A stretch of 64,000 bases of DNA, taken from positions 248,001 to 312,000 of the forward strand of contig NZ_JAMFLY010000003.1 of NCBI RefSeq assembly GCF_023502235.1, in the 5' to 3' direction. Under the pieces are notes generated by a model. It made no database searches, was not told where the DNA came from, and saw only the letters and a program-made list of their open reading frames with translations. Positions within the stretch are counted from its first letter, which is position 1. Each line of letters starts with the position of its first letter. Positions 27,501 through 61,523 of the stretch are shown here, one piece after another. Both the position numbers and the translations under genes were made by a program. This stretch comes from Flagellimonas myxillae. Lineage in GTDB: Bacteria; Bacteroidota; Bacteroidia; Flavobacteriales; Flavobacteriaceae.

Positions 27501-27880
27501 ATAACCACACCGGTGGACCATGGCTTATTTCCCATAATGCCCGCGCTTTCGGAAATATCCTCAAACTTTAGATTGCCTTTGTTCAGATATAGTCGATTGG
27601 GGACCATGTTCCCGGTTAGGTATATATCCGACAGGCCATCATTGTTTATATCACCGATGGCCACCCCTCCACCATTGTAAAAATTTCGGTACTTGAAAAT
27701 GTTGAAATTTTTCTGGTTTTCGACCTTGTTCACAAAACTAACCCCAGTCTCACTGGACGGAAGCAAGCTAAACAGTGTTTCCTTTTCCTGGGAAGTAGTA
27801 TTCTCCTCTTTGGAGTTGCATGCCACCAACAACATCACTGTACAAGCTATTTTTAAAACATGTGCTTTCATCTTCATCAT
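24527..27880 (-). CDS. VCBS/FG-GAP repeat lipoprotein with ASPIC/UnbV domain (second paralogue)
   Basis: A 1117-residue lipoprotein (signal ending MLLVAC, then NSKEENTT). Calcium-loop repeats such as DINNDGLSDIYL, DYDKDGDLDAYI, DLDNDGDLDMVI and DFDGDGDVDLFI recur along the chain. A central ASPIC/UnbV segment reads NPFGIGALVKFY ... PSRGFQSSMDYGMTLGLG ... VVWP. The acidic SKEE after the lipid cysteine is like a surface-export signal. The layout matches the genes on both sides, so the three arose by tandem duplication and later diverged. It lies 2 bases after the first paralogue and overlaps the third by 8. No T9SS C-terminal sorting domain is visible, which fits a lipid-anchored route. Confidence 0.85.
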   Translation of the reverse strand: MMKMKAHVLKIACTVMLLVACNSKEENTTSQEKETLFSLLPSSETGVSFVNKVENQKNFNIFKYRNFYNGGGVAIGDINNDGLSDIYLTGNMVPNRLYLNKGNLKFEDISESAGIMGNKPWSTGVVMVDINQDGLLDIYVSNAGNLEGNNHDNDLYINNGDLTFSEKAHEYNLAKTGFTTHASFFDYDKDGDLDAYILNNSNIPVSSLGYAEQREVRAQDWEGVPHIFRGVGDMLLRNDNGTYVDVSESAGIYGSLIGFGLGVLVTDFNNDLYPDIYVSNDFYERDYLYINQKDGTFKEEIKNWTSHLSLSAMGIDIADINNDGHNDIFITDMLPEPEERVKSVMEFEGYNVFELKQSKDFFQQYIQNTLQLNNGDGTFSEVAYYSGVDATDWSWAGLMFDMDNDGLKDIFVTNGINHDLTDLDFVDFFANEIIQKMALTGRKESIDSIINKMPIKPQPNYAYKNNGDITFKNANKEWGFELPTRSNGAAYGDLDNDGDLDMVINNVNTEAFIYRNNTETLLDHNYVQLKFKGPAANPFGIGALVKFYFDGNVVNQEMIPSRGFQSSMDYGMTLGLGKTEKLDSIRVVWPDDQTQLLKDVVPNQVVTLDHGQANSTYSIPKMENSPTFLSELNVNNLVSHKEDHYNDFDYEGLIYKKLSQEGPSLAVGDVNGDGNEDFYIGGAHGQSGTLYLHLGNGKLAPKKIPAFETDKRYEDVVASFFDADGDSDLDLIVGSGGNKVNAQNNFRPRLYLNDGNGNYSKSDQELPTTFKNIATIAPQDFDGDGDVDLFIGSRSVVGVYGLTPDHLLLENQGEGVFADATERFAYDLKDAGMITDSKWADVDGDGKMDLVVTTEWDTPKIYKNTGRRITKMSSSLDSLYGWWNTVEAADLDNDGDLDLILGNQGLNIHYRPLSEEQPMKMWINDFDNNGTIEQIVTQNYNGGDYPIHQKRELTDQLVSLKKQNLKASDYAQKTIDELFAKEILDKSIVKQATTSASVIAINEGDGKFTIKQLPARAQLSCICDITCTDVNNDGNLDLIMAGNNFEFKPQFSRLDASYGNLLLGDGKLGYEWLNYDQSGFKIKEEVKHLKPIKDSQGKRYLVAAINNEKPKLFAINE

Positions 27881-27882
27881 TA

Positions 27883-30800
27883 TTACATTTTTGCCAAAAA
27901 AATGGGTGAGTCATTATTTCTACCGATAATAAAAACCGTTTTATTATCGATGTTGATTTTTTTAATTGTTCTTACAGCTCCGGAAACCTCGAAACCATTA
28001 TGCTTTAAAAACCCGAATGAGCCGTTCGGATTTTGCTGCAAAATTAGTCCATGAAACGCATCCAACCTGCCCAATTGCGTGCTAATTTCATAGTTATTGC
28101 CTAAGATTATCAGTTCTTTACGTCCATCCTTGGTCACATCCTCCCACGCCATATCAAAAATTGCGGAAGACTGGGCCAAGGTGGGGAGTTCTTTCTTGGA
28201 AAACTGTCCGTTTCCATCATTCAGAAAATAGCAGCTTGCCAATTCGAATACTTGCTTGGTAGTTGCCTTTTCCAAAGGTTCTTTTCCGAACAAATCCTCA
28301 ATGGAGGCCTTGGCAAAGGATTCATACCTCAAAAATTCCTTGTTCAAATAGGGCATTTGCTTTACAAGCTCGTCTTTGGAGGCAAAAGGAGTTTCGGTGT
28401 CCTTGTGAAAATAGGTAACGACGGGCTCAAAGGAGCCATTCCCGTCAAAATCGTTGAGGTACATGTTGATGGGCTTGTCTTGGGAGGCTTGGAGCTTACT
28501 ATTCAATCCCCAATTGCCACAAACTAGGTCCATATCCCCATCGTTGTCCAAATCTTCAGCCTTGATTACGTTCCACCAACCATGGGTAGTATCCAAACCG
28601 TTGTTTTTTTGTAGGGTAAATGTCTTTCCGTTATTTAGAAATATGGAGACGGGCATCCAATGTCCAACCGCGATTAAATCCAAATACCCATTGGCATCGA
28701 CATCCGCTGTAAAAACATCTTTGATGTTACCCAATCCCCGAAGTTCAGGAATAACTTCTTCTGAAACTTCCTGGAATTTTCCCTGTTTGTTCTGTTTTAG
28801 GAAAAACTGTTTGGGTGTACTTCCATAGGCTGAAGGTACTTGATCCGATACAATTACGAGTTCTTGTTGTCCGTCCTTATCAAAATCAGCAGCGATTACT
28901 TTTGAGGCGTTGGTCTCCAAAGTGGGAAGCATGTCATTGTCCAAATGAAACGTGCCCTTGGTATTGATGTACAATCTCGGCTGTAGCGGAGCTCCATTTT
29001 TGTATTCGTTGCCTCCGCTGACTACGATCAAATCTGGATACGAATCACCGTTGGCATTAAAAAATGTATGGGAGATATCTTCATTGGTCGCATGGGCGTT
29101 AAATAACTCTGGCTGGTGCACCTCGAATTTGCCCGATGCATCCTGAACGTAAAGCTGGGAGCTTTGTTTTTTCGCTCCACTGATAAAAAAGTCATCCAAC
29201 CCATCCTGGTTAACATCGCTTACGGAAATATCCGGTCCTTCATTGGAGTTGGCGAATGGGATCAAGGGTTCCCGGTCAAAATCCAAGGAGCTTGTTTCCC
29301 TATGGAAAAAAGGCACCAAAGAATCCAGCTTAGCAAATAACTGCTGTTTGGGAATAGAATCCTTTAGATAATAGTTATCGGCACTGCCCTTCCGCTCTAT
29401 GCGAATCTTGTTAGGGACGGCCAGGTTATAGCGGGTTTCCAACTCCCCTCCTGGCCAAATAATTTTAAGGGAATCTATCAGCGAATCCCGACCCACTCCC
29501 ATATGAACCCTTGGAGCTACGGACGAGAGGTATCCTTTGGAAGTATAATTTTCCTGGGTTAGGGTATGGGATTTGGAGTAGGCGATTACTTTGGCACCCA
29601 GCCCAAACCTATTTTGGGTACCGGCATCCAATTCCAAAGTTAGATGGTTGCCTTGACTCCCGGTATTTTCCATAATATAGGCTTCTTCATCCACGTTGTT
29701 TACAACTAGGTCCAAATCGCCATCATTGTCCAGGTCAGCATAAACACTTCCATTGCTGAACGAAGCTTCAAGGCCTATCCAATCTTTGGTGGTATTCTCA
29801 AATTGTAAGTTTCCAAGGTTTCGAAAGCTATAATTGGAAATTTTCTTTATCGGTATTTCTTCGATTAGAGGCATATCTGATTGCAGCATGCCTTGATCAA
29901 TCCGTCTTTGAATATTTTCGTTCGAAATGAAATTGATAAAGTCCATATCGTTGGTTGCCCCCTTGATTCCGTTGGAGACAAACACATCCTTGAATCCATC
30001 GTTGTCAAAATCTGCTAAAAGGGTGCCCCAGGACCATTCGGTAGCTGACAAGCCGCTCAAACTTCCAATTTCTGCAAAATTTGTGTTCCCCAAATTCAAG
30101 TGCAAGGTATTTTGCATGTATTGGGGTGCATATCCGTTTTTTAGGTATTGCTGATAGATGGGATAGCTGTATTCCAATCCCGATGTCTTATAAGTCTGTA
30201 AATTTTCTGGCAGCATGTCCAAAGAGAAGATATCGGTCAACCCATCGTTGTTGATATCGGCAATGTCGTTGCCCATGGAAAAATGGGAGGTGTGTCCCAG
30301 TTTTTGATCATCGGAGGAGATCAATTCCTTGAAGGTCCCATTTTGTTGGTTGATGTAGAGATAGTCGTTCTCAAAGAAGTCATTCCCGACATATATATCG
30401 GGATATCCGTCATTGTTCACATCACTTACGGAAAGCCCTAGACCATAGCCACTTTTGCCTTGATAGATGCCGGCTTTGGCGCTTATATCAATAAAGGTTT
30501 CCCCGGTATTTTCGTACAAACGATCTCCGGATAGGGAATCCACTTTTTTTCGCTGGGACCCTCTTCCGTAGGCCCTGTTGGGATAGACGGAATGATTCAT
30601 CAAATACATATCCAAATCGCCATCCAAGTCATAGTCCAAGAAGGCGGTATGCGTTGAAAACCCGGAAAAATCCAGATTGTGCTTTTTCGCTTGTTCCTTA
30701 AAGGTGGGGATGCCGTTTGCATCCATTCCTTGGTTGATGTATAAGAGATTGTGCCCCTCTAGAATGCTATAGTTGCCCACTTTACAAACATAGATATCCA

Positions 30801-31173
30801 AGAGTCCGTCGTTATTGATGTCCACACTGGTAACTCCGGTTGTCCAGCCATCGGCATTTTGTATCCCGGAGATTTCGGTAATTTTTTCGAATTTAAAGTC
30901 CCCCTTGTTGAGATAAAGCTCGTCCGCAACCTGATTTCCGGTAAAATAGAGGTCAACCAAGCCGTCATTGTTGAAATCTGCGGCTGCCACCCCACCTCCA
31001 TTGTAATAGTAAAGGTAATTTAGGATGTTAAGTTGAGGGGAATTGGAGAGCGTATTGGCGAAATCAATATTCGTATGGGTTGCCGGCAACTTAGAAAATA
31101 GCGTAGGTTGTTGTTTGCTACAGGAAGCGAAGCATACACCCAAAATAATTATGTAACCCCATACTTTTCTCAT
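27883..31173 (-). CDS. VCBS/FG-GAP repeat lipoprotein with ASPIC/UnbV domain (first paralogue)
   Basis: A 1096-residue lipoprotein (signal MRKVWGYIIILGVCFASC, lipid Cys18). Propeller blades carry loops such as DFNNDGLVDLYF, DYDLDGDLDMYL, DVNNDGYPDIYV and DLDNDGDLDLVV. The ASPIC/UnbV segment is at about 520-605 (NRFGLGAKV ... SKGYLSSVAPRVHMGVG ... IIWPGG). A second block of repeats follows. It is the first of three paralogues read leftward and follows the symporter gene after a 128-base gap that contains a stem-loop, so it may have its own promoter or processing site. A surface ligand-binding role is inferred from the lipidation and the SusCD neighbourhood. Confidence 0.85.
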   Translation of the reverse strand: MRKVWGYIIILGVCFASCSKQQPTLFSKLPATHTNIDFANTLSNSPQLNILNYLYYYNGGGVAAADFNNDGLVDLYFTGNQVADELYLNKGDFKFEKITEISGIQNADGWTTGVTSVDINNDGLLDIYVCKVGNYSILEGHNLLYINQGMDANGIPTFKEQAKKHNLDFSGFSTHTAFLDYDLDGDLDMYLMNHSVYPNRAYGRGSQRKKVDSLSGDRLYENTGETFIDISAKAGIYQGKSGYGLGLSVSDVNNDGYPDIYVGNDFFENDYLYINQQNGTFKELISSDDQKLGHTSHFSMGNDIADINNDGLTDIFSLDMLPENLQTYKTSGLEYSYPIYQQYLKNGYAPQYMQNTLHLNLGNTNFAEIGSLSGLSATEWSWGTLLADFDNDGFKDVFVSNGIKGATNDMDFINFISNENIQRRIDQGMLQSDMPLIEEIPIKKISNYSFRNLGNLQFENTTKDWIGLEASFSNGSVYADLDNDGDLDLVVNNVDEEAYIMENTGSQGNHLTLELDAGTQNRFGLGAKVIAYSKSHTLTQENYTSKGYLSSVAPRVHMGVGRDSLIDSLKIIWPGGELETRYNLAVPNKIRIERKGSADNYYLKDSIPKQQLFAKLDSLVPFFHRETSSLDFDREPLIPFANSNEGPDISVSDVNQDGLDDFFISGAKKQSSQLYVQDASGKFEVHQPELFNAHATNEDISHTFFNANGDSYPDLIVVSGGNEYKNGAPLQPRLYINTKGTFHLDNDMLPTLETNASKVIAADFDKDGQQELVIVSDQVPSAYGSTPKQFFLKQNKQGKFQEVSEEVIPELRGLGNIKDVFTADVDANGYLDLIAVGHWMPVSIFLNNGKTFTLQKNNGLDTTHGWWNVIKAEDLDNDGDMDLVCGNWGLNSKLQASQDKPINMYLNDFDGNGSFEPVVTYFHKDTETPFASKDELVKQMPYLNKEFLRYESFAKASIEDLFGKEPLEKATTKQVFELASCYFLNDGNGQFSKKELPTLAQSSAIFDMAWEDVTKDGRKELIILGNNYEISTQLGRLDAFHGLILQQNPNGSFGFLKHNGFEVSGAVRTIKKINIDNKTVFIIGRNNDSPIFLAKM

Positions 31174-33071: not shown

Positions 33072-34703
33072 CTAGTACCCTGGGTTTTGAACCAAGTTTG
33101 GATTGGCCAAAAGCTGAGGATTAGGTATTGGGAACAATTTGTATTTATCGTTTCCAACAGAGTTAGCAGCTTTAAACTCCCATTGTCTGGTGTATTGACC
33201 AAAACGAATCATATCGTTTCTTCTCCAGGTTTCTGCATATAGCTCACGAGCTCTTTCATCCAAAAGATCAGATTCGCTAACAGAACCAAGGGCTGTTGCA
33301 CCTCTAAGTACCCTAAGCTCATTTACCATGGCCGTTGGGTCACCACCACTTCGCATCATCGCTTCAGCCTTCATAAGGTGTGCATCGGCATAACGGAAAA
33401 TAATCTCGTGGTTGGTGAAACCGCCATTGTAACGGGCACCGTATTTTTGAACTCGAATACCAGTTCTCTCACTGTTGTTGATCAAGCTATTTGCACCATT
33501 TCCATCAACGAACTCCCTTGAGAATACCAAAGGATTTCCAGGACGGTCGTTCAATGGAGTTCCATCCAAGTCGTATTGTTGACCTACAAGGAATCCAAAA
33601 CCAACGTTGGAACCTAGCTCGAAGCCATCATCACTTTCTTCGGTTTGATCGGCACCTGTAAATGGAGTTCCTCCAGGAGGTACACCACCTCTACGCTCTT
33701 CTTGACCGTCGATTGCATTACCGTCGCTGTCCAATCTGTTGTTGTTGGCGTCTCCTTCAAAAAGGTCATAGTATTCAGCCAAGGTGCTAAATCCATTCCA
33801 TCCACCACCACCGTTGGAGGTAGAGTTGTAGTGCAAGCCGTTGTAGATTCTGTTTCCTGTACCTGCGGCCAACCACCAGATAGTTTCTGTATCAGGGGAA
33901 TCCCTGAACAAATCAAAGTAACCTGATTGCAAAGCATAACCTTCTGCGGCAATTTCATCTACAAGAGAAATTACTTGTGACATATCTCCTGCTTCAGGAC
34001 TTCCGCCACCACCGGTCAATTGGTTCACAAAAATGTGCTTGTTCAAAAGTAGTTTTGCTTTAAGGTACCTGGCTGCAGCCTTGCTACCAGTTTGGTTATC
34101 AGCTCCGCTTCCAGCCGCAACAGACGGAAGGTTGTTGATCGCTACGTCCAAATCAGCAAGGATAAAATCAACTGCAGCTTGACCTGACAATACTTCTGGT
34201 ATAGAAGACGATGGCAAGCTAGTATCCCTAAACGGAACCTGTCCGAATAAATCCAGAATTACATACATGGAATACGCTCTCAAAAAGCTAGCATCCCCTA
34301 TATCTTGTTGGGAAGGGTTACTTCTTGAATCCAAGATCTGGGAAGCTACTAACTGGTTAGCGTTCCATTGGTTAAATGGGGTCACGATATCGGTGGCTTC
34401 TGCATTCCATTCGTGTGCATGCAGATTTCTCCATCTACCGTTATCACCCCAGTCCGTACCCCGAGTTGGTACCAGGGCGGCGTCTGTGGTTACTTCGTCA
34501 AGGGCAAACTTGGCTGCTTGATCAGCATACTGTCCTGCAACGGTGCTGTATAATCCTTCAACACCTGAGGCCGGATCAGCCAAGCCTTGGAAACCCTCAC
34601 TGATGATAGAATCAGTCTCCTCAATTTCCAAATCAGTACAGGAAACAAAAGCTCCTACTGAGAGTAAGGATAACAAATAAAATTTTATTTGGTTTCTTTT
34701 CAT
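33072..34703 (-). CDS. susD-like: SusD/RagB-family surface glycan-binding lipoprotein
   Basis: A 543-residue SusD homologue. ATG 34703 gives the signal MKRNQIKFYLLSLLSVGAFVSC (lipid Cys22), and the next residues TDLEIEETD are strongly acidic, typical of surface-exposed Bacteroidota lipoproteins; the reading from 34712 begins with TTG. The N-terminal TPR-like region (QDIGDASFLRAYSMYVILDLFGQVPF) and the C-terminal RYADAHLMKAEAM ... NELRVLRG ... LLDERARELYAETWRRNDMIRFGQY are diagnostic of the family. It caps the SusC channel and binds oligosaccharide. It lies 17 bases after the SusC gene. A preference for maltooligosaccharides is inferred from the GH65 and GH13 genes across the regulator. Confidence 0.93.
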   Translation of the reverse strand: MKRNQIKFYLLSLLSVGAFVSCTDLEIEETDSIISEGFQGLADPASGVEGLYSTVAGQYADQAAKFALDEVTTDAALVPTRGTDWGDNGRWRNLHAHEWNAEATDIVTPFNQWNANQLVASQILDSRSNPSQQDIGDASFLRAYSMYVILDLFGQVPFRDTSLPSSSIPEVLSGQAAVDFILADLDVAINNLPSVAAGSGADNQTGSKAAARYLKAKLLLNKHIFVNQLTGGGGSPEAGDMSQVISLVDEIAAEGYALQSGYFDLFRDSPDTETIWWLAAGTGNRIYNGLHYNSTSNGGGGWNGFSTLAEYYDLFEGDANNNRLDSDGNAIDGQEERRGGVPPGGTPFTGADQTEESDDGFELGSNVGFGFLVGQQYDLDGTPLNDRPGNPLVFSREFVDGNGANSLINNSERTGIRVQKYGARYNGGFTNHEIIFRYADAHLMKAEAMMRSGGDPTAMVNELRVLRGATALGSVSESDLLDERARELYAETWRRNDMIRFGQYTRQWEFKAANSVGNDKYKLFPIPNPQLLANPNLVQNPGY

Positions 34704-34720
34704 GATAAACAATTTTTTAA

Positions 34721-37700
34721 TTAAAATGATGCGCTAATTCCTAATGTGAAAGTTCTAGCTGCTGGGAATGCTGCCCAGTCTATCCCTCTTGTAGGAATTC
34801 CAGAACCTAAGTCTCCTGTTTGAACAGTTACCTCAGGGTCAATTCCGCTATAATCCGTAATCAATAGCAGGTTCTGACCTGTTAATGAAATACGTAAGGA
34901 CTTAAATAATCCATCTCCGCTCACGGGCCAGTTGTAGCCCAAGGAAGCATTCTGTAGTCTTACAAAATCACCTTTTTCCAAAAAGCGTGTGGAAACATCC
35001 GCCGAAGCTCCACCTGCCTCTCCACTGGTAACCACTTCTTGGGTTACGTTTCTGGCGTTGTTGATGGAACCTGCGGTAAAGAATCCGTTGGCTGAGTTAT
35101 TGTACACATGGAATCCAAACTGTCCTGCAAAGTAGGCAGAGGCATCCCAATTCTTAACCCTTAGGTTAAGAGAAAGACCGGAAGTGATATCTGGTAAAGC
35201 ATCCTCTCCTATAAAGGTTTGGTCACCAATAGGATCACCAACACCATTTCCATCAACATCTTGGTAAATAGGGAATCCATCAGAATCGAATCCTTCGAAG
35301 ATTGCCATGTAGTAAGAGAACAACGATTGTCCTGCTTCAAAACGCTGGGCAAAAGCTCCGGAAAGACCTTGTCCATTAATTTCACCTGTATTTACTGAAC
35401 TAGCAAAATCCTGAACCTCGTTCTCATTGTATGCAATGTTAAAGGAAGTAGTAAAGTTTACGTCATCCGTTTGAACCCAATCGTAGCTAGCGGCAAATTC
35501 GATACCTTGGTTAATGATCGTGGCATCTTGGTTACCAAACTGGAACGGGTCTACTGCAGGAGCTGCGGGAGGAGTCTGTAATAGTACATCGGTTGTTTCA
35601 TTCTTGTAGACATCAATGCTACCACTGAATCGATCGTTGTTAAATCCAAAATCCAAACCAACGTTCAAGTTCAAAGTAGGCTCCCACTGCAAATCGGGAA
35701 CATCGGTTGCTACGATGGCAAGACCAGTTGGATTGATAGTAAGGTCGTTTTGGATACCTAAACCGCCAAATCGCTGTCTAGCAACAAAATTACCGTATCC
35801 CAAACCGTCTTGGTTACCAGTGATACCGGCACTCAATCTAAGTTTCAATGTGGATACGGAATCCCCTATAAAATCTTCTTCAGACATTTTCCATGCGAAA
35901 GCACCGGAAGGGAAGTATCCATATTGGTTTTCCGGACCAAAACGGGAAGATCCATCAGCCCTTAAAGTCGCTGTAAACAAATATTTGTCTTGCAACGTAT
36001 AGTTAATACGACCAAAGAACGACTGAAGTTCATCGGTGAAATTAAATAGATCGGCAACAACTGCAGTTACCCTTCTGTCTCCACCAAAACCAACAACTTC
36101 GCCTGCAACTACATTCGGGAACAATCGGTTCACTACAATTCCACCAGTTGAATCGTTAAAGTAGAACTGCTGGAAGCTCCCATTGATGCTTGCTTTATTG
36201 CTTTGAACCGTGGTAATAAGATCATTTCCCATTTCATTCAAATCCGTAGTAGAGAAACCACGGCCGTTGGAACTCAATCCAAACTCTTGGAAATCTTGAT
36301 AGGAGTAACCCGCTAAAATGTCGATAGAGGAATTGTCAAAGTCCTTTCTATAGTTCAATGTGGCCTCGATCAATCTATTTTCCTTGTTCAAGGTGTTGTA
36401 GAAAGCAGCACCAGTCTCTTCTATCCCGGTCAAGTTCTGAACGTTAGAAGAGATTGCTGAAATGGACTCACTTTCAGATTTGTCGTAACCCAAGTTGATT
36501 TTGGCTGTAAGTTCCGGAGTGAATTTGTAATCAATGGAACCATTGATCAGTACTCTATCTGTAAAGGTCTGTAGCTGTGTATACTCCAACAAGTTGGCAG
36601 GCAATATTTGCGTTCCACCATCTGTAAAATCAGGATTGGTTGGCCAAGTTGGATTTGCTGAATACACAGCTCCCAATACATCACCTCGGAAACCAGCGGT
36701 TGCACTAAAAGGTGCAGTTTCATCATTGGTTCTTGAAATTGTGGCATTCATCCCCAAAGTCAATTTATCATCAAAGAAACGATGAACAGCGTTGATACGT
36801 CCTGTAATACGCTCCAAATCTGTTTTCTTAACAATACCGAATTGCTTTCCATAACTAAAGGTTGCCCTTACATTTCCCTGTCCATAATTATGTGAATAAG
36901 AAATGTTGTTGTTTGTGGAAGCGGCATTTCTGGTAATGAAATCTTGCCAGTCTGTATTGGCACCAAAATCCACATCCGATGCGTTTCCACCATATTGGGT
37001 AACAGCTGACAAGAATTGATTTCTGTTCAAAAGGTCATACTCCCTAATAGGATTGGAAAAACTCATGTTGGAAGAAAACTCAATCACTCCGCCTTGCCCT
37101 GTTTTACCACTTTTTGTAGTAATGATCACAACACCGTTAGCACCACGAGAACCGTAGATAGCTGTCGCAGAAGCATCCTTTAAGATACTGATGCTCTCAA
37201 TGTCGTTCGGGTTAAGGAAGTTCAATGGGTTTCTTACTGCAGTTTGTCCAAAACCAGTATCACCTGCTGGAGAGGTGTTACCCCCTGCCAATGGAATACC
37301 GTCCACAACAAATAAAGGGTTGTTGTTGGAGCGAACAGAATTGGAACCCCTGATGTTCACCTGGATGGCAGCTCCTGGCTCACCACTCGACGCCGAGATG
37401 TTAACACCAGCAGTCTTACCTTGGATCAATTGTTCAGGAGATGCAATAACCCCCCCGTTAAAGTCTTCCGCGGTAACTGCGGTGACCGATCCAGTTGCAT
37501 CCTTCACTGTAGTGGTACCATAACCAATAATAACAACTTCGTCCAATGCCTGCGCATCTTCCTGAAGTACAACATTGATCGTGGTCTGCCCATTCACAGG
37601 AATGGTCTGCGTAGTGTAACCAATGTAGCTAAACACCATGACGGCAGAAGCACCGACATCGCTGAGGGTATAATTACCATCAAAATCGGTCTGCGTACCA

Positions 37701-37846
37701 TTGGTCGTGCCCTGTACTAGAACACTTGCTCCCGGTAAAGGTCCGTTCACATCTGAAACAGTACCAGATACCGTCTGGGCTTTTGCCAATCCAAAGCATA
37801 AAAATGCCCCAGAAAGCAAAATGCTTTTTAGTAGCGTAATCTTCAT
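34721..37846 (-). CDS. susC-like: SusC/RagA-family TonB-dependent outer-membrane transporter
   Basis: A 1041-residue outer-membrane receptor. A signal peptide (residues 1-23, ending AKA) is followed by a carboxypeptidase-D-like domain (VSGTVSDVNGPLPGASVLVQGT ... YIGYTTQTIPV), the TonB-box region DEVVIIGYGT, the plug (VNIRGSNSV, PLFVVDGIPLAGG, SILKDASATAIYGSRGANGVVIITTK) and a long beta-barrel ending RTFTLGISASF with a terminal Phe. It imports oligosaccharides across the outer membrane with energy from TonB. It is the first gene of the leftward operon; a LacI-type operator lies 90 bases upstream of its ATG. Confidence 0.94.
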   Translation of the reverse strand: MKITLLKSILLSGAFLCFGLAKAQTVSGTVSDVNGPLPGASVLVQGTTNGTQTDFDGNYTLSDVGASAVMVFSYIGYTTQTIPVNGQTTINVVLQEDAQALDEVVIIGYGTTTVKDATGSVTAVTAEDFNGGVIASPEQLIQGKTAGVNISASSGEPGAAIQVNIRGSNSVRSNNNPLFVVDGIPLAGGNTSPAGDTGFGQTAVRNPLNFLNPNDIESISILKDASATAIYGSRGANGVVIITTKSGKTGQGGVIEFSSNMSFSNPIREYDLLNRNQFLSAVTQYGGNASDVDFGANTDWQDFITRNAASTNNNISYSHNYGQGNVRATFSYGKQFGIVKKTDLERITGRINAVHRFFDDKLTLGMNATISRTNDETAPFSATAGFRGDVLGAVYSANPTWPTNPDFTDGGTQILPANLLEYTQLQTFTDRVLINGSIDYKFTPELTAKINLGYDKSESESISAISSNVQNLTGIEETGAAFYNTLNKENRLIEATLNYRKDFDNSSIDILAGYSYQDFQEFGLSSNGRGFSTTDLNEMGNDLITTVQSNKASINGSFQQFYFNDSTGGIVVNRLFPNVVAGEVVGFGGDRRVTAVVADLFNFTDELQSFFGRINYTLQDKYLFTATLRADGSSRFGPENQYGYFPSGAFAWKMSEEDFIGDSVSTLKLRLSAGITGNQDGLGYGNFVARQRFGGLGIQNDLTINPTGLAIVATDVPDLQWEPTLNLNVGLDFGFNNDRFSGSIDVYKNETTDVLLQTPPAAPAVDPFQFGNQDATIINQGIEFAASYDWVQTDDVNFTTSFNIAYNENEVQDFASSVNTGEINGQGLSGAFAQRFEAGQSLFSYYMAIFEGFDSDGFPIYQDVDGNGVGDPIGDQTFIGEDALPDITSGLSLNLRVKNWDASAYFAGQFGFHVYNNSANGFFTAGSINNARNVTQEVVTSGEAGGASADVSTRFLEKGDFVRLQNASLGYNWPVSGDGLFKSLRISLTGQNLLLITDYSGIDPEVTVQTGDLGSGIPTRGIDWAAFPAARTFTLGISASF

Positions 37847-51749: not shown

Positions 51750-52655
51750 ATGCTTAGTAGAAAAAACAAACTCCTGCTTTTTAAGCTATTGAGTTTATTT
51801 TCTGTTGTTCGCGGGTATAACATCTTGGTCATTACCCTGGCCCAATACTTGGCTTCCATTTTTATTCTTTCTCCACAGACCCGATTGCCGGAAGTTGTGT
51901 TGGACCTGAACCTTTTTTTGATCGTAACCGCCTCTGCATTGGTCATAGCAAGCGGGTATATAATCAACAACTTTTACGATGCGGAAAAGGACTTGATCAA
52001 CAAACCAAGGAAGAGTATGCTCGATAGGTTGGTGAGTCAACGGTTTAAACTCACTACCTATTTTATCCTCAATTTTTTGGCCGTGTTGGCGGCGAGCTAC
52101 ATTTCGTTTAGGGCAGTTTTGTTCTTTTCCAGCTACATTTTTGGAATTTGGTTATACTCCCATAAACTAAAGCGGGTTCCATTTCTGGGCAACCTGATAT
52201 CGGCTTCCTTGGCCATTGCACCCTTCTTTGTGGTTTTTGTGTACTATCGGAATTTTGAGACTGTAATTTTCGTACATGCCCTCTTTCTGTTCTTGTTGAT
52301 TTTGGCCCGGGAAATGATCAAGGACCTTGAAAATATGGCCGGGGACATGGCGCAGAACTACAAGACCATTCCAATTCTATATGGGCCCAATGTGTCCAAA
52401 GTCCTCATCGGGTTCCTGATTGTACTTACCCTGATTCCTGCGTTACTATTGATCAAAACCTTCGATGTGGGTTATATGTATCTGTATTTTATAGCGTGCA
52501 TAGTGCTCTTGGGTTTATTTATTCTACTGTTGTGGAGGGCCAAGGGTAAAAAACATTATGTTTGGTTGCACAACATTTTAAAGTTCATCATTGTAGCAGG
52601 AGTTTTTAGCATTTTATTGATTGATGTGGACTTGGTGATAAATCGAATTTTGTAA
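51750..52655 (+). CDS. UbiA-family prenyltransferase (GGGP-synthase/DGGGP type)
   Basis: A 301-residue integral membrane enzyme with eight to nine helices. The two aspartate-rich prenyl-diphosphate sites are visible: NNFYDAEKDLINKP (73-86) and DLENMAGD (192-199). In Flavobacteriaceae this subgroup is commonly named geranylgeranylglycerol-phosphate geranylgeranyltransferase, but the acceptor in these non-archaeal organisms is not established; quinone or carotenoid-related acceptors are alternatives. Its place after two mevalonate genes fits a consumer of the isoprenoid product. It overlaps the nitrilase start by one base. Confidence 0.85.
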   Translation: MLSRKNKLLLFKLLSLFSVVRGYNILVITLAQYLASIFILSPQTRLPEVVLDLNLFLIVTASALVIASGYIINNFYDAEKDLINKPRKSMLDRLVSQRFKLTTYFILNFLAVLAASYISFRAVLFFSSYIFGIWLYSHKLKRVPFLGNLISASLAIAPFFVVFVYYRNFETVIFVHALFLFLLILAREMIKDLENMAGDMAQNYKTIPILYGPNVSKVLIGFLIVLTLIPALLLIKTFDVGYMYLYFIACIVLLGLFILLLWRAKGKKHYVWLHNILKFIIVAGVFSILLIDVDLVINRIL

Positions 52656-53605
52656 TGGAGAATCATCTAAAAGTGGCCTTGGCCCAAATTGCCCCAGTTT
52701 GGTTGGACAAGCGAGCGACCATTCAAAAAATTGAGGCTTCGATACAAGCAGCGGCCAAAGAAAGGGCTGAACTGATAGTTTTTGGAGAAGCATTTCTTCC
52801 GGGATATCCCTTCTGGTTGGCCCATACCGAAGGTGCAGCGTGGGATTTGAAAGTCAATAAGGAATTGCACGCCCATTACGCAAGAAATTCTATTCAAATT
52901 GAAACAGGGGAGCTGGATTCCATCTGTGCTTTGGCCAAGGAAAACAACATGGCTCTGTATTTGGGAATGATGGAACGTGCCAAGGACAGGGGTGGACATA
53001 GTCTGTATTGCTCCCTGGTCTATATCGACCAAAAGGGAGTGATTAAATCGGCGCATCGAAAACTACAGCCCACCTACGACGAACGCTTGACTTGGGCCCC
53101 AGGTGATGGGAATGGATTGCAGGTGCATCCCCTAAAACAATTCACGGTTGGGGGACTTAATTGTTGGGAGAATTGGATGCCCTTACCTAGGACGGCTCTG
53201 TACGGTCAAGGAGAAAATTTGCATGTGGCCGTCTGGCCAGGAGGGCTCCATAATACTAAGGATATTACACGATTTATTGCCCGGGAATCCAGGAGTTATG
53301 TCATCTCGGTTTCGTCCTTGATGACTACTTCCGACTTTCCAGAACATACGCCACATTTGGGAGAAATTCTCAAAAAAGCGCCCAAGGTTTTGGCAAATGG
53401 TGGTAGCTGTATCGCAGGCCCCGATGGGGAATGGATTGTGGAACCCGTTGTTGACAAAGAAGGAATAATTTATGAAATCCTTGATGTTAACCGGGTCTAT
53501 GAAGAAAGGCAAAACTTTGATCCCGTAGGGCACTATTCCAGACCCGATGTTACCAAGCTGATCGTCAACCGGGAACGACAATCCACGGTTGAGATTAAGA
53601 ATTAG
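52655..53605 (+). CDS. Nitrilase-superfamily carbon-nitrogen hydrolase
   Basis: A 316-residue nitrilase-fold enzyme. The catalytic triad is E45 (FGEAFLPGYP), K136 (HRKLQPTYDER) and C170 (GGLNCWENWMP). The motifs FLPGYPFW, KLQPTYDERLTWAPGDG and NCWENWMPL are those of the true nitrilase branch (nitrile to acid plus ammonia) rather than the amidase or NAD-synthetase branches. It is coupled to the prenyltransferase gene by a TAATG overlap. Its place in an isoprenoid operon is unexplained. Confidence 0.88.
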   Translation: MENHLKVALAQIAPVWLDKRATIQKIEASIQAAAKERAELIVFGEAFLPGYPFWLAHTEGAAWDLKVNKELHAHYARNSIQIETGELDSICALAKENNMALYLGMMERAKDRGGHSLYCSLVYIDQKGVIKSAHRKLQPTYDERLTWAPGDGNGLQVHPLKQFTVGGLNCWENWMPLPRTALYGQGENLHVAVWPGGLHNTKDITRFIARESRSYVISVSSLMTTSDFPEHTPHLGEILKKAPKVLANGGSCIAGPDGEWIVEPVVDKEGIIYEILDVNRVYEERQNFDPVGHYSRPDVTKLIVNRERQSTVEIKN

Positions 53606-53630
53606 TAATGCTTCTTCTGAAGATTTCAGG

Positions 53631-53691
53631 TCGAGCGCAGTCGAGACTTTTCTAGGATTTGGACATTTAGTGATCTCTCGACTGCGCTCGA
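53631..53691. repeat. Inverted pair of the 16-base repeat TCTCGACTGCGCTCGA
   Basis: TCGAGCGCAGTCGAGA (53631-53646) and its exact reverse complement (53676-53691) flank a 29-base loop between the nitrilase and pseudouridine-synthase genes. Each arm is also an imperfect palindrome (TCGA...TCGA ends). A third copy of the same 16 bases lies at 57952-57967. I recall this word as a frequent intergenic repeat in Flavobacteriaceae genomes. It may act as a REP-like element or as a bidirectional terminator or processing hairpin. Confidence 0.8.
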
Positions 53692-53706
53692 GGTGATATA
53701 AAACAC

Positions 53707-53714
53707 TATTTTTG
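53707..53714 (+). promoter_or_regulatory. TAnnTTTG -7 element before the pseudouridine synthase gene
   Basis: TATTTTTG lies 17 bases before the ATG at 53732 and matches the Bacteroidota -7 consensus. No TTTG is found at the expected -33 distance, where the 16-base repeat arm lies instead. Confidence 0.4.
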
Positions 53715-53731
53715 CAAAAAATTTACGACTG

Positions 53732-54571
53732 ATGGCGAAATCAGACAATCCGCGAAATAGGAAACCTTCCCAAAATACTGGGCGAAACCAGAAAAAGCAA
53801 TACCCCAAAAAGTATGGTTCAAAGCCTAAAGCGAATACCCCACCCAAAAGATCCAATCCAGATGAAATTCGGCTGAACCGTTACATAGCCAATGCTGGTA
53901 TCTGTTCGCGAAGGGAGGCCGACACCTATATAGCAGCAGGTAGCGTTTCTGTCAACGGAAAAGTCATCACCGAAATGGGTTACAAAGTAAAACTTACGGA
54001 TGATGTACGTTTTGATGGGCGAAGACTCAACCCAGAGAAAAAAGAGTATATCCTTTTGAACAAGCCCAAAAACTTTATCACCACCACAAACGACGAAAAA
54101 GGAAGGCGCACGGTAATGGAATTGATTTCCAGTGCATCAAACAATAGGTTGTTGCCTGTTGGGAGATTGGATAGGAATACTACGGGTCTGCTGTTGTTCA
54201 CCAACGATGGAGATCTTACTAAAAAGTTGACCCATCCTACCCACGGGGTACGTAAGATTTACCACGTCCATTTGGACAAAAATCTTGCATTGGCCGACTT
54301 ACGAAAGATTGAGGAAGGCCTTGAGCTTGAGGATGGAAGTGTACAGGTTGATGATGTGAGCTATATCCAAGGGGCCCCAAAAAGAGAGGTTGGAGTTCAA
54401 ATCCATAGTGGTCGTAACCGGATTGTACGCCGAATTTTTGAACATTTGGGTTATGATGTGACCAAATTGGACAGGGTTATTTTTGCTGGGCTTACCAAAA
54501 AAGACCTTCCCCGTGGGCACTGGCGCCATTTGACCGAGCAAGAAGTGGTGAATTTGAAGATGATACGGTAA
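53732..54571 (+). CDS. RluB/RsuA-family pseudouridine synthase
   Basis: A 279-residue rRNA-modifying enzyme. A basic disordered N terminus (1-45, rich in Lys, Asn, Gln and Pro) is followed by an S4 RNA-binding domain (46-92, RLNRYIANAGICSRREAD) and the catalytic domain with D147 in GRLDRNTTGLLLFTNDG, then VQIHSGRNRIVRRIFEHLGYDVTKLDRV. The RsuA/RluB/E/F branch is clear; 23S rRNA as target (RluB type) is likely. The basic extension is common in Bacteroidota homologues. Confidence 0.9.
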   Translation: MAKSDNPRNRKPSQNTGRNQKKQYPKKYGSKPKANTPPKRSNPDEIRLNRYIANAGICSRREADTYIAAGSVSVNGKVITEMGYKVKLTDDVRFDGRRLNPEKKEYILLNKPKNFITTTNDEKGRRTVMELISSASNNRLLPVGRLDRNTTGLLLFTNDGDLTKKLTHPTHGVRKIYHVHLDKNLALADLRKIEEGLELEDGSVQVDDVSYIQGAPKREVGVQIHSGRNRIVRRIFEHLGYDVTKLDRVIFAGLTKKDLPRGHWRHLTEQEVVNLKMIR

Positions 54572-54608
54572 TCCTGCTTTTTTCAGTATTTATTCGTGAT
54601 AGGCAAGC

Positions 54609-55907
54609 TTATTTTTCATGCTTGTAAATTTTACCATCCTTCATCACAAAGGGGATAGTTTCCAACAGTTTTATATCGGATAATGGATTTCCCTTAACTG
54701 CAATAATATCTGCTAGTTTGTTCTTATCAATACTTCCCAGCTGGTCTTTCACACCAAGTAGTTCAGCGGCAGTAATTGTTGCGCTCTTAATAATGTCAAT
54801 TTCGGTCATCCCGGCCTTTTTCATAAAAGAAAATTGCTCGGCATTTCTACCATGGGGATAAATCCCGGCATCTGTTGCAAATACCATTTTTACACCCTTT
54901 TTGTAAGCCTTGGAGAATGTTTCCAATATGGAAGCAAACATTTCACTGTTATTCCCATCAAGATCTTTACCACTAAAATCCTCATTTTTCTCAATCAACT
55001 CAAAATAAGCTGACAACAAATCCATAGATAAATAAGCCTTTTGTTGAAGTAAAAGGGCTATGGCTTCGTCATCCAAGAAGGTCGCATGCTCAATGGAGGT
55101 AGCCCCAGCTCGAAGGGCATTTTTAATTCCTTCGGCACCATGGGCATGCGCAGCGACTTTAATTCCTCTTTTGTTGGCTTCATCTACAGCAGCTTTTAGT
55201 TCCTCGATGGTATACGAGGCTGCTCCGGGTTTTGTTCCGTAAGAACCGAAACCTCCGGTGGCAAAAACCTTTATCCAGTCAACTCTGTATTTTAAATGCT
55301 TTCGTGTCTCTTTTCTTACTTCATCTACACCATCGGCAATACTCACAAGGTTGTCACTAAACTCAATTTGGGGACTTAACCAGTTTCCAAAGGCCCCATG
55401 TCCTCCAGTTATGGTAAGTGCAGGACCGCTAACGTACATTCTTGGCCCAATTATCCAACCTTTATTGATGGCGTCCCTCAGTGCAACATCACCGTAAAAG
55501 TAGCTATGTAAATCCCTAACGGTGGTAAAGCCTGCTTCCAAGGTTTTCTTTGCATTTACTGTTCCGAGTATACCGTAAGTCGCAGCCGGCAGGGTGTAAA
55601 CATCAAATCCTTCATTTTCCAAATACCAATTTCCAACGAGATGGGTATGACAATCTATTAATCCAGGAAGGAGTGTATAATCGGAAAGGTCAAGGTAGTT
55701 CTTTAGCGTTGATAAATCGGGATTTGTTTTGACATCAAGAATTTTGTTTCCCTTAATGGTTACCAACACGTTTTTTTCGATTTGTTCCGTTTCAACATCC
55801 AGCATTCCTCCAGCAAAAATGTACAAATCGGATTCTTGAGCCATTATATTAATACTGGACAACATCCAGAAGCATACAATTGAAACCAGTTTTGCAAATA
55901 CTTTCAT
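54609..55907 (-). CDS. Secreted imidazolonepropionase-like amidohydrolase (prolidase type)
   Basis: A 432-residue metal-dependent hydrolase with a Sec signal (residues 1-23, ending INIMA). Metal ligands are visible: H87 and H89 (LIDCHTH), the likely carboxylated K213 (DWIKVFATGG), H254 or H256 (AAHAHG), H274 (IEHATF) and D346 (FATDAG). This pattern fits the Xaa-Pro/Xaa-Arg dipeptidase-like branch with a binuclear centre. Some members act on other cyclic amides or on organophosphates, so the substrate is open. It is convergent with the pseudouridine synthase gene and divergent from the membrane protein at 56099. Confidence 0.87.
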   Translation of the reverse strand: MKVFAKLVSIVCFWMLSSINIMAQESDLYIFAGGMLDVETEQIEKNVLVTIKGNKILDVKTNPDLSTLKNYLDLSDYTLLPGLIDCHTHLVGNWYLENEGFDVYTLPAATYGILGTVNAKKTLEAGFTTVRDLHSYFYGDVALRDAINKGWIIGPRMYVSGPALTITGGHGAFGNWLSPQIEFSDNLVSIADGVDEVRKETRKHLKYRVDWIKVFATGGFGSYGTKPGAASYTIEELKAAVDEANKRGIKVAAHAHGAEGIKNALRAGATSIEHATFLDDEAIALLLQQKAYLSMDLLSAYFELIEKNEDFSGKDLDGNNSEMFASILETFSKAYKKGVKMVFATDAGIYPHGRNAEQFSFMKKAGMTEIDIIKSATITAAELLGVKDQLGSIDKNKLADIIAVKGNPLSDIKLLETIPFVMKDGKIYKHEK

Positions 55908-56098: not shown

Positions 56099-56611
56099 AT
56101 GTCGCGGGCGCATAGGGATCCGATAAAATGGGAGGACAAAAAATCCGAAGAAGATAAAGTGATTAGCAAACAATTACATCAGAAAGCACATTTGATTTTT
56201 TGGTCCTTCGGGATTATCCTGATCGCACTTCAGGTCTTGTTTACCGTGGTTTATCCCGATTCAATCCTGGACATTAATGTCCACGACACCTACCTTGTGA
56301 TAGCCTATGCTCATCTCTACAACGTTTTGGGAACTTGGTTTATACTCTGCGGCTTGGGTTACTGGATTTTAAAGCTCAAGGGTATACCCATTATTAAATG
56401 GATGTTCTGGCTTCATTTGGTTTTTACCTTGCTTTTCCCCTTAAGTTTTGGGTTAAATTGGTACGAATCCCATTCAAACCCGAATACATATCAATGGACC
56501 ATGTGGGTAAGTACTGTGTCCTTTTTTGGATTGGTATTGTTTGTATTGGTTCAGGTGTTTTATTTTCTGAACATCCTTATCTCTACCTTAAGAAAAATAA
56601 AGTCAAGGTAA
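56099..56611 (+). CDS. Membrane protein resembling helices IX-XII of cytochrome oxidase subunit I
   Basis: A 170-residue protein with a charged N terminus and four helices (about 31-51, 64-92, 98-119 and 136-162). DINVHDTYLVIAYAH (58-72) resembles the DxxxHDTYxVVAHxH segment of heme-copper oxidase subunit I. The later FPLSFGLNWYESHSNPNTYQWTMWVSTVSFFG matches in order the FPxHFLG ... YPDAYxxWN ... SSxG segment. The HD pair (H62, D63) and one axial-type histidine (H72) are kept, but the position of the other is Tyr70. With the first eight helices absent it cannot be a complete oxidase. It stands alone and converges on argH 6 bases away. Confidence 0.6.
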   Translation: MSRAHRDPIKWEDKKSEEDKVISKQLHQKAHLIFWSFGIILIALQVLFTVVYPDSILDINVHDTYLVIAYAHLYNVLGTWFILCGLGYWILKLKGIPIIKWMFWLHLVFTLLFPLSFGLNWYESHSNPNTYQWTMWVSTVSFFGLVLFVLVQVFYFLNILISTLRKIKSR

Positions 56612-56617
56612 GGGAGC

Positions 56618-57904
56618 CTACTTGGCAAGCAGCTGTTCCATTTTACCCCGGATATCTTCCAAACACAAATTCCCCAAGCTCCCTTCATGGGTATGCTCAA
56701 TGTCTCGTTTGGGCTTAAAATTTCCATTTTCAATAGCTTGTCCCATGGTCTTGTAGGCATCCCGGAAGGGTATGCCACTTTTGACCAATTCGTTTAAGGT
56801 ATCCACGCTAAATAGATAATCGTACTTGGAGTCATCCAAAATAGTTGGGTTCACTTGGATTTCCTTTAGACTAAAGTTTATCATTTCCAGACAAGCTTTT
56901 ATATCCTGAATGGCGGGAACGATTACTTCTTTGACCAACTGCAGGTCCCGGTGATAGCCGCTCGGTAGATTGTTGGTGATCAAGATGAGCTGGTTGGGTA
57001 CTGCCTGAATTTTATTGCATTTTGCTCGAATGAGCTCAAATACATCCGGATTTTTCTTATGGGGCATAATGCTGCTGCCCGTGGTCAGTTCATTTGGAAA
57101 TGAGATAAAATCAAAATTTTGGCTCATGTACAAACAGATGTCCATCGCCAATTTGGAAAGGGTGGCAGCTACGCTTGAAATTCCAAAGGCAGTGGCCTTT
57201 TCCACTTTCCCTCGACCCATTTGAGCGGCAACCACATTATATTTCATGGTCTCAAAACCCATTTCCTGGGTGGTAAAGCTTCGGTCAATTGGGAACGAAC
57301 TACCATAGCCTGCTGCGCTTCCCAAAGGATTTTGGTCGGCTACTTTGTAGGCGGCCTGTACAAACTGTAGGTCGTCGACCAAACTCTCCGCATAAGCAGA
57401 AAACCAAAGTCCGAAAGAGGAAGGCATGGCAATTTGAAGGTGGGTATAGCCTGGCAGTAACACGGATTGGTGTTTTTTTGCCAAATCGAGCAGCAAATCG
57501 AACAAATCCTTGGCGCCCGCAGAAATTTCGGAAAGCTCATGTTTCAGGTAAAGTTGCATGGCTACAAGCACTTGGTCGTTTCTAGATCGGGCCGTATGGA
57601 TTTTCTTCCCCGTGTCACCAAGCTTTTCAGTAAGTAGAAACTCAATTTTGGAATGCATGTCCTCAAAATCATCTTCAATGGTAAATTGCCCAGCCTCGAT
57701 AGATTTTGCAATACCATTGAGTTCTTTTACCAAGGCTTCGGACTCTTCCTTGGAGATCAGTCCCACCTTGCCCAACATTTGGGCGTGTGCTTTGGAGGCC
57801 ATTACATCGTACTTTGCCAAGAGCAAATCCAATTCTCGGTCATTGCCTACGGTAAAATGGTCAATCTTTTTATCCGTGCTAAATCCTTTGTCCCAAAGTT
57901 TCAT
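56618..57904 (-). CDS. argH: Argininosuccinate lyase
   Basis: A 428-residue enzyme of the fumarase/aspartase superfamily that splits argininosuccinate to arginine and fumarate, the last step of arginine synthesis. Motifs include HTARSRNDQV, PGYTHLQIAMPSSFGLWFSAYAE and the signature GSSIMPHKKNPD. It is the last gene of the leftward arg/pro cluster, after a 78-base gap behind argE that contains a copy of the 16-base repeat. Confidence 0.95.
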   Translation of the reverse strand: MKLWDKGFSTDKKIDHFTVGNDRELDLLLAKYDVMASKAHAQMLGKVGLISKEESEALVKELNGIAKSIEAGQFTIEDDFEDMHSKIEFLLTEKLGDTGKKIHTARSRNDQVLVAMQLYLKHELSEISAGAKDLFDLLLDLAKKHQSVLLPGYTHLQIAMPSSFGLWFSAYAESLVDDLQFVQAAYKVADQNPLGSAAGYGSSFPIDRSFTTQEMGFETMKYNVVAAQMGRGKVEKATAFGISSVAATLSKLAMDICLYMSQNFDFISFPNELTTGSSIMPHKKNPDVFELIRAKCNKIQAVPNQLILITNNLPSGYHRDLQLVKEVIVPAIQDIKACLEMINFSLKEIQVNPTILDDSKYDYLFSVDTLNELVKSGIPFRDAYKTMGQAIENGNFKPKRDIEHTHEGSLGNLCLEDIRGKMEQLLAK

Positions 57905-60584: not shown

Positions 60585-61523
60585 CTATAGGTTTTCAAGA
60601 ATTTTTTTCAATACAATCTGGGCCGAAAATGTTCTATTGTTGGCCTGTTCTATCACAAGGGATTGGTCACTGTCCAGTACCGCATCTTCAACCACAACAT
60701 TTCTACGCACGGGTAGGCAATGCATAAATTTGGCATCTCCAAGCTTCCCTTGGGTCATCAACCAGCTTGAATCAAGGTTTAAAACGCTGCCATAATCGGT
60801 ATAGCTGCTCCAATTTTTTACATAAACAAAATCAGCATTTTCCAAAGCTTTTTCTTGATCGTGTTCAATAGAACAACCTTGGGTAACTTCCGGATTGAGC
60901 TCATATCCTTCTGGATGGGTGATTACGAATTCGGCCTCTTGTAGTTTCATCATCTCCACAAATGAGTTGGCCACGGCATGCGGCAGTGCCCTAGGGTGGG
61001 GCGCCCAAGAAAGAACTACCTTGGGTTTTGCTTTGGTGCCAAATTCCGCCAAGGTAATGGCATCTGCCAATGCTTGCATGGGATGTCCGACCGAACTCTC
61101 CATATTCACAACTGGAATATCGGCATATTTTGTAAAGCCATTGAGAACAACTTCAGCTTCGTCCTGAGCCTTGTCCATCAAACCGGCAAAGGCCCGAATG
61201 GCCACAATATCGCAGTACTGGGAAACCACTTGGGCAGCTTCCTTGATGTGTTCTGCCTTGCCCTGGTCCATCACCGTTCCATCCTCGAATTCCAATTGCC
61301 AGCCCTCGCTTCCAAAATTCATTACCATTACGTCCATACCCAAATTAATGGCAGCTTTCTGGGTGCTCAATCGGGTACGCAGACTGTTATTGAAAAAGAG
61401 CAGACAAAGGGTTTTGTCCTTTCCCAGGGACTTGAATTGGGTTGGGTTTTTTTTCAGCTCGATGGCCTCCGAGACACTGTCTTTAAGGTTGCCAATATCG
61501 TTTATGGTCAAATAATGCTTCAT
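60585..61523 (-). CDS. argF': N-acyl-ornithine carbamoyltransferase
   Basis: A 312-residue transcarbamoylase. The carbamoyl-phosphate loop reads NNSLRTRLSTQKA (about 45-57) in place of the STRT motif of ordinary ornithine enzymes, and MDKAQDE, VGHPMQALADA, APHPRALPHAV and HCLPVRRNVVVEDAVLD follow. These are features of the acetyl/succinyl-ornithine group (argF'). In Bacteroides the enzyme uses succinylornithine; which acyl group is used here depends on a residue of the 80s loop that I cannot align with certainty. It overlaps proB by 4 bases. Confidence 0.9.
   Translation of the reverse strand: MKHYLTINDIGNLKDSVSEAIELKKNPTQFKSLGKDKTLCLLFFNNSLRTRLSTQKAAINLGMDVMVMNFGSEGWQLEFEDGTVMDQGKAEHIKEAAQVVSQYCDIVAIRAFAGLMDKAQDEAEVVLNGFTKYADIPVVNMESSVGHPMQALADAITLAEFGTKAKPKVVLSWAPHPRALPHAVANSFVEMMKLQEAEFVITHPEGYELNPEVTQGCSIEHDQEKALENADFVYVKNWSSYTDYGSVLNLDSSWLMTQGKLGDAKFMHCLPVRRNVVVEDAVLDSDQSLVIEQANNRTFSAQIVLKKILENL

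Follow-up and report, generated by a model that had tools for sequence, protein, structure and literature searches.

A stand-alone membrane protein of Flagellimonas myxillae homologous to the last four helices of cytochrome oxidase subunit I

The window is a stretch of 64,000 nucleotides of the Flagellimonas myxillae contig NZ_JAMFLY010000003.1, and the features described here are listed in Table 1. An ATG-started open reading frame (ORF) encodes a protein of 170 residues, referred to below as the stand-alone protein. Translation may in fact begin at the GTG of residue 21, since the corresponding frames of the nearest relative (genome G335) and of Flagellimonas pacifica open too late to match residues 1–18. 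An amidohydrolase gene lies upstream of the ORF and, beyond it, a pseudouridine synthase gene (here rluB); an argH-type gene (named from sequence) is found on the opposite strand, six bases past the stop codon of the ORF.

Table 1. Coordinates of the features in the window (AF2, AlphaFold2; TM, transmembrane helix).
Feature	Coordinates	Strand	Basis
Stand-alone membrane protein derived from COX1; 170 aa (150 aa with GTG 56159 as start)	56099..56611	+	ORF, homology, relatives
TM1, residues 30–51 = COX1 helix IX	56186..56251	+	AF2 model; structural alignment to murine COX1
Predicted hairpin, residues 56–69, with D58-x-N60-x-H62-D63-T64-Y65	56264..56305	+	AF2; conservation
TM2, residues 70–93 = COX1 helix X; contains Tyr70, His72 and Y88	56306..56377	+	AF2, conservation
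TM3, residues 100–126 = COX1 helix XI; conserved His106	56396..56476	+	AF2, conservation
TM4, residues 131–169 = COX1 helix XII; conserved Gln152 and Asn158	56489..56605	+	AF2, conservation
RsuA/RluB/RluF-type pseudouridine synthase (rluB); marker of the orthologous locus	53732..54571	+	
argH-type gene; downstream marker of the orthologous locus	56618..57904	−	Named from sequence
Amidohydrolase gene, upstream of the ORF	54609..55907	Opposite to the ORF	

Other parts of the window were named from sequence. Three tandem genes of about 1100 aa each with repeated FG-GAP-like stretches (21277–31173) stand beside a SusC/SusD-like pair (33072–37846), and the minus strand between 56618 and 63482 carries an arginine and proline biosynthesis cluster. 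The carbamoyltransferase-like gene at 60585–61523 may, we presume, be of the acylornithine type known from Bacteroidota.

The initial annotation had assigned the protein to helices IX–XII of haem-copper oxidase subunit I (COX1/CtaD) from the segment HDTYLVIAYAH (residues 62–72) and from FPLSFGLN followed by YQWTMWVSTVSFFG; all are present, in that order. The PF00115 search that it had suggested returned a match of the window protein to Pfam COX1 at E 5.1e-4 over profile positions 306–398 of 436, its 19.5 bits falling short of the 34.8 set as curated cut-off; an NCBIfam search with the window protein alone gave no COX1/CtaD match. All of the 15 matches listed in a PDB sequence search were COX1 (best E 1.1e-4). 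With a 25-row family profile (A3), 35 PDB sequences were recovered at E ≤ 0.001 and 35 of 35 were COX1 (best E 1.2e-13; bovine COX1, 1.8e-11). Comparison of A3 with an alignment of 25 Bacteroidota COX1 fragments by hhalign gave 99.5% and E 1.5e-22, and a profile of nine stand-alone relatives reached full COX1 frames of about 590–640 aa with E down to 2.7e-17, model positions 11–151 of 152 being covered. Among 25 stand-alone members, Pfam COX1 was matched by 22 at E ≤ 0.01 and CtaD TIGR02891 by 21 at E ≤ 0.1; no model for the stand-alone family was met in Pfam or NCBIfam with the window protein and these members. The PDB profile matches and the hhalign result rule out chance similarity, and the helix IX–XII assignment is confirmed. 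Homology to this part of COX1 is near certain, and descent of the protein from COX1 is hardly in doubt.

The two proteins share sequence and the predicted helix order IX–XII, together with the HDTY motif, the TM3 His and the Gln and Asn of helix XII. They differ in that the stand-alone protein has 4 helices and COX1 12, in that its haem and CuB ligands are absent or variable and the PRRY loop is lost, and in that it is predicted to form an autonomous fold with a hairpin.

Split mitochondrial cox1 of protists, reportedly treated by Gawryluk and Gray in 2010, likewise has a C-terminal piece of COX1 with its own gene. In excerpts of a published account, that piece (cox1-c) averages 25 residues and completes a shortened COX1 (PMC5664110). 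The window gene, in contrast, encodes four helices, and the COX1 of the host is complete: the same genome has a full-length copy (L001, a 618-aa frame) with HPEVY, HH, HDTYFVVAHFH and PRRYY, and two more Pfam COX1 genes. A long-frame match (434–628 aa, the 434- and 522-aa frames being apparently truncated) was found in 71 of 71 genomes of the genus, with or without a stand-alone copy. A complementing piece of a split COX1 was therefore rejected as scarcely conceivable, the host COX1 having kept its motifs.

Residue conservation was counted in 53 stand-alone rows; being related, they are not independent of one another. Y65 was kept in all 53, D63 and T64 in 51, H106 and Y88 in 50, H62, N60 and N158 in 49, and D58 and Q152 in 46. 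What stays constant is the hairpin, along with some polar positions within the helices. Replacement of HDTY by KASY in one member (L079) indicates that the motif is not absolute. Glu198 is a residue of subunit II, and Asp369 of COX1 is a ligand. By counting in the profile alignment, the COX1 counterparts of D58 and H62 are Asp364 and His368. In excerpts of the source, these two residues are part of a Mg–water cluster and Mg binds Glu198 (PMC10194837). Counting also pairs Y65 with Tyr371 and H106 with His413, a lead from sequence towards a possible H-pathway connection of the stand-alone protein; according to the same excerpts, the Tyr371Phe change leaves activity at the wild-type level and residue 413 is Gln in yeast (PMC10194837).

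The ligands of the redox centres were compared in the same rows. In COX1, haem a, haem a3 and CuB are held by six invariant His residues; of those that serve haem a, the one not aligned with His72 is His61 in the bovine protein. One haem a position is His in the window protein (His72), the haem a3 position is Tyr (Tyr70), and the other four ligands fall outside the homologous stretch. The initial annotation had read this region correctly: the first axial His of COX1 HDTYFVVAHFH corresponds to Tyr70, the second to His72, and the HD pair is kept. Both positions were His in 18 of 18 COX1 rows; of the 53 stand-alones, 6 have His at the haem a3 position and 32 have it at the haem a position. The COX1 helices that carry the second haem a ligand and those of CuB are absent from the stand-alone protein. 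A classical haem a/a3 site is very probably missing, and the proposal of haem binding made in the initial annotation is left unsupported by the two counts and by the missing ligand helices; quinone binding, its other suggestion, gained no support.

A small haem protein of another kind was considered, in which haem would be held by His72 or His106, maybe between protomers, in a sensor, carrier or isomerase. His72 is kept in the window protein and in the 32 rows counted above, H62 in 49 and H106 in 50 of the 53. The comparison is with styrene oxide isomerase (SOI), also a small membrane protein, in which a single His (H58) from a neighbouring subunit coordinates the iron of haem b (PMC11374702, excerpts). 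SOI (8pnu_A) is among the structural matches of the model described below, aligning with Z 8.8 and rmsd 3.6 over 121 residues, although its authors saw, in the same excerpts, no substantial DALI similarity to other proteins (PMC11374702). This Z is, however, within the range of common helical arrangements; SOI was absent from the PDB sequence matches, and its haem ligand was not matched. Moreover, the a3 ligand position is rarely His, and the His72 position is lost in three of the eight rows of the clade that includes the window protein (YTY, YFD and YTR). Such a haem protein is unlikely, but it is the foremost rival of the reading favoured below.

The window protein was modelled by AlphaFold2 with 25 stand-alone sequences (pLDDT 89.3, pTM 0.79). 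The model comprises four long helices and, at the N-terminus, a short one. Residues 56–61 and 64–69 were modelled as strands with H62–D63 at the hairpin turn, at somewhat lower confidence (block means 80 and 72), and correspond to the COX1 segment that precedes and opens helix X. The corresponding fragment of COX1 modelled alone (25 COX1 rows) had no strands, a helix running from residue 42 through the haem ligands and a motif region with pLDDT of about 40–60; its overall values (pLDDT 66.3, pTM 0.56) were obtained with an alignment far less diverse than A3 (mean column identity 82% vs 31%), which may itself lower pLDDT. The contrast between the two models is suggestive only. Autonomous folding of the window protein is predicted from its own model. 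K/R charges are present at both ends and in the TM2–TM3 loop, and taken together with the topology of COX1 they would place the hairpin on the periplasmic side.

Structural overlap with subunit I, also suggested in the initial annotation, was present by one method and not significant by the other. With VIA-align, COX1 chains took ranks 1–8 over the same stretch (Z 11.4–12.4, rmsd 3.6–3.9), the first with Z 12.4 and rmsd 3.7, although for helical bundles a Z below about 13 may mean a common arrangement only; model residues 26–167 were aligned with murine COX1 334–480. Other COX1 entries (bovine 7coh, 1ar1 and 1m56) had Z 6.6–6.8, below BAR domains (9.2) and among unrelated helical proteins. Foldseek alone gave no structural match at E ≤ 0.001, the first COX1 row being at rank 33 (E 2.3).

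Relatives were surveyed with stand-alone copies defined by an open-frame length below 200 aa. A match was obtained in 31 of 71 genomes of the genus, 23 strong (E ≤ 3.8e-24, own genome counted) and 8 weak (E 2.4e-11 to 1.5e-4, some possibly false). No copy was detected in the other 40 of the 71, so the gene is dispensable. In the family, at least 37 of 299 genomes (own genome counted) have one, a lower bound with at most 13 candidates scored per genome; these include two short frames (104 and 114 aa) and four matches that run across a stop. Stand-alones were found elsewhere in the class as well, in further families (G101, G195, G290, G734, G855, G984 and G1003; the G984 and G1003 matches cross a stop). 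The best 80 loci of the named scan comprised 26 stand-alone and 54 COX1 loci, the named hosts including Flagellimonas pacifica, Maribacter, Winogradskyella, Algibacter, Aquimarina, Flavobacterium and Tenacibaculum. One in-frame stop interrupts 2 of the 26 frames and 24 are uninterrupted; the two are L086 (5986–6471, Winogradskyella marincola) and L097 (5911–6369, Flavobacterium solisilvae), where decay or sequencing error may be the cause. Up to two copies were found per genome. The protein is thus not the orphan it had been called, and the survey for conserved stand-alone orthologues that had been proposed with that label did find them. No description of a bacterial stand-alone C-terminal COX1 family was found in the open-access literature searched.

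In the tree, which is unrooted and has long branches, a single branch parts the 53 stand-alones from 18 COX1 rows; its support is 100/100, and it is present in 100% of 200 bootstrap trees. A single origin explains this most simply, without being proved by it. The GMPRRY loop of COX1 is still present in L077, the only aligned stand-alone row to keep PRRY, and FPLFDD is kept in several others, the loop being FPMFDD or FPLFDD in Bacteroidota COX1; together these point to an origin in Bacteroidota COX1. Most likely, the family goes back to a single event in which part of a subunit I gene of a Bacteroidota cytochrome c oxidase, helices IX–XII only, was duplicated. Copies of G360, G366 and other genomes form another lineage within the genus, which clusters with those of Winogradskyella. 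The G360 and G366 proteins are 84% identical to the copy of a Winogradskyella metagenome-assembled genome (MAG), at a dS of 0.42–0.43, whereas COX1 dS within the genus is 1.4–1.6 (three pairs). Transfer between genera is likely from these values, with contamination possible on the MAG side.

The stand-alone gene lies about 40 bases or less downstream of rluB in G369, G339, G021, G009, G014 and a Maribacter, and 0.6 kb downstream in G335; in the window, the amidohydrolase gene lies between the two. Leaving the window aside, the aligned stand-alone rows come from 53 loci; rluB was found in the flank (≥1.5 kb for most) of 7 of them, and these seven with the window make up exactly the eight-row clade of the tree (100/97). 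This lineage has therefore probably been inherited at the site since the Flagellimonas–Maribacter ancestor. In G345, the rluB and argH matches are 15 bases apart with no stand-alone between them, and the stand-alone gene is elsewhere. In G015 (L181), an unrelated minus-strand frame of 189 aa lies between rluB and argH, from which the junction appears to take up different small genes.

An upstream gene on the same strand was counted at 34 of the 46 loci with one listed, within 60 bases and of varied identity at 18 of the 34; some rluB genes overlap the stop-to-stop stretch of the stand-alone, were missed in this count and were found separately. No recurrent respiration-linked neighbour was seen among 47 loci (neighbours clustered, not named; two places counted twice, L080/L084 and L081/L112). 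The most widespread neighbour cluster, of the short-chain-dehydrogenase type, occurs at 7 of the 47. The nitrilase-family gene at 52655–53605, which adjoins rluB, matched Pfam CN_hydrolase and, as best NCBIfam model and below cut-off, the Nit6803 family; a similar nitrilase-like frame (named from sequence) stands beside rluB in G345, at the site without a stand-alone. A connection between nitrile or cyanide chemistry and a derivative of an oxidase would be attractive, yet synteny explains the position of the nitrilase gene.

A precedent for a COX1 derivative retained in the genome without cofactor ligands is the 'deranged COX1-like protein' of Acetobacter, kept beside ctaB, for which a structural role is proposed in the excerpted text (PMC10715153). 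The window differs in this linkage. For the UbiA-type gene at 51750–52655, the best matches were to a 'prenyltransferase' model and to models of geranylgeranylglycerol-phosphate transferase, none of which reached its cut-off, and CtaB was not among the 11 models matched. Among the four neighbours scanned at 51750–55907, no ctaB was found beside the gene of the window.

Selection was estimated from pairwise comparisons. dN/dS was 0.09–0.27 in the 25 closest stand-alone pairs listed (one pair uses a piece of the interrupted L086), indicating purifying selection on close pairs. Between the window and G335, with dS at or near saturation, the stand-alone proteins are 63% identical (dN 0.285), RluB 91% (dN 0.056), ArgH 91% (dN 0.059) and COX1 97% (dN 0.022), so that the stand-alone dN is about 5 times that of the neighbouring genes and 13 times that of COX1. 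The corresponding values for stand-alone, RluB and COX1 were 0.392, 0.089 and 0.024 with G369, and 0.333, 0.107 and 0.026 with G021. In the rluB-linked pairs, stand-alone dN was about 3–8 times that of neighbours, the more distant G339 being set apart (4.4 times RluB), and it was 13–16 times that of COX1 (G335, G369 and G021). The gene is constrained, yet its protein changes several times faster than its neighbours.

Fast protein change, patchy presence, the two interrupted copies and the G345 rluB–argH site without the gene would all suit a decaying COX1 duplicate without function. Against this stand the low dN/dS, the single branch, the many genera and the 24 intact frames of 26, together with invariant Y65, a near-invariant motif and a confidently predicted autonomous fold. 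Decay is very unlikely, and a degraded fragment was ruled out as the main reading by selection, the single branch and the spread; the initial annotation, which had favoured a protein over a degraded fragment, is upheld on the same grounds.

A conflict gene, that is a decoy, immunity or tolerance factor against an agent attacking terminal oxidases, would explain the fast change (relative to neighbours and to COX1), the patchiness and the apparent transfer between genera, and the presence of up to two copies per genome would fit. The searches for mobile and defence elements argue against it. PADLOC gave no match for the window protein and one weak match among 25 members (PycTM, E 4.6e-4), leaving 24 of 25 without any; PHROGs gave one weak match among 25 members; of 20 viral pattern matches, none was confirmed in viral contigs; and a plasmid search with one member (L067) gave no match. 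Phage or plasmid carriage was thus not borne out, no recurrent partner gene was seen, and one side of the apparent transfer is the MAG copy, with its possible contamination. We regard a conflict role as distinctly unlikely.

The reading we favour, and consider rather likely as long as no partner is named, is that of a non-catalytic COX1 derivative with a predicted autonomous fold. The protein would be a small four-helix inner-membrane protein and not a working redox subunit, since the helices with the CuB and first haem a ligands are absent and the remaining haem ligands vary; on its own it cannot form the redox sites of the oxidase. Its retention as a separate, fast-changing gene probably reflects a new job. 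The former start of helix X would have been turned into the predicted periplasmic beta-hairpin, displaying D58, N60, H62, D63, T64 and Y65, whose equivalents in COX1 are found where the Mg/water cluster adjoins subunit II. In the most likely mechanism, the hairpin would bind either a metal ion or a partner in the envelope, such as subunit II through its CuA domain, and the protein would thereby modulate or assist the assembly or activity of a terminal oxidase without catalysis. Subunit II would be the most plausible partner, as it normally meets that face of COX1; with no respiration-linked neighbours, any named partner is a guess. Also weighing against this reading are the genomes of the genus in which no copy was detected, the two interrupted frames and the matches across a stop, the altered motif of L079, the Foldseek result with the low VIA-align scores of other COX1 entries, and the less diverse alignment behind the COX1 control model. 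An oxidase-linked modulator or assembly role is accordingly offered as a tentative suggestion. It is also conceivable, and proposed with similar reserve, that the C-terminal third of COX1 has given rise to a new autonomous membrane-protein family in which the D-x-N-x-H-D-T-Y of the hairpin makes up a new site for a metal or partner and serves a fast-evolving regulator, sensor or enzyme outside the oxidase.

The conversion of a piece of an enzyme into a non-enzyme is known as a kind, and the present instance appears to be undescribed in the literature searched. As a membrane protein, COX1 has been studied as well as almost any other, and it is usually regarded as a core that cannot be divided. 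The present family consists of the last four COX1 helices, is under selection and evolves separately; it is a natural experiment on which parts of that half can fold and work alone, one in which the redox ligands have been dropped and the HDTY motif near the Mg site kept. It is also a warning that short annotation matches to CtaD are not always oxidase fragments, and the stand-alone family may reveal a modulator of aerobic respiration in Bacteroidota.
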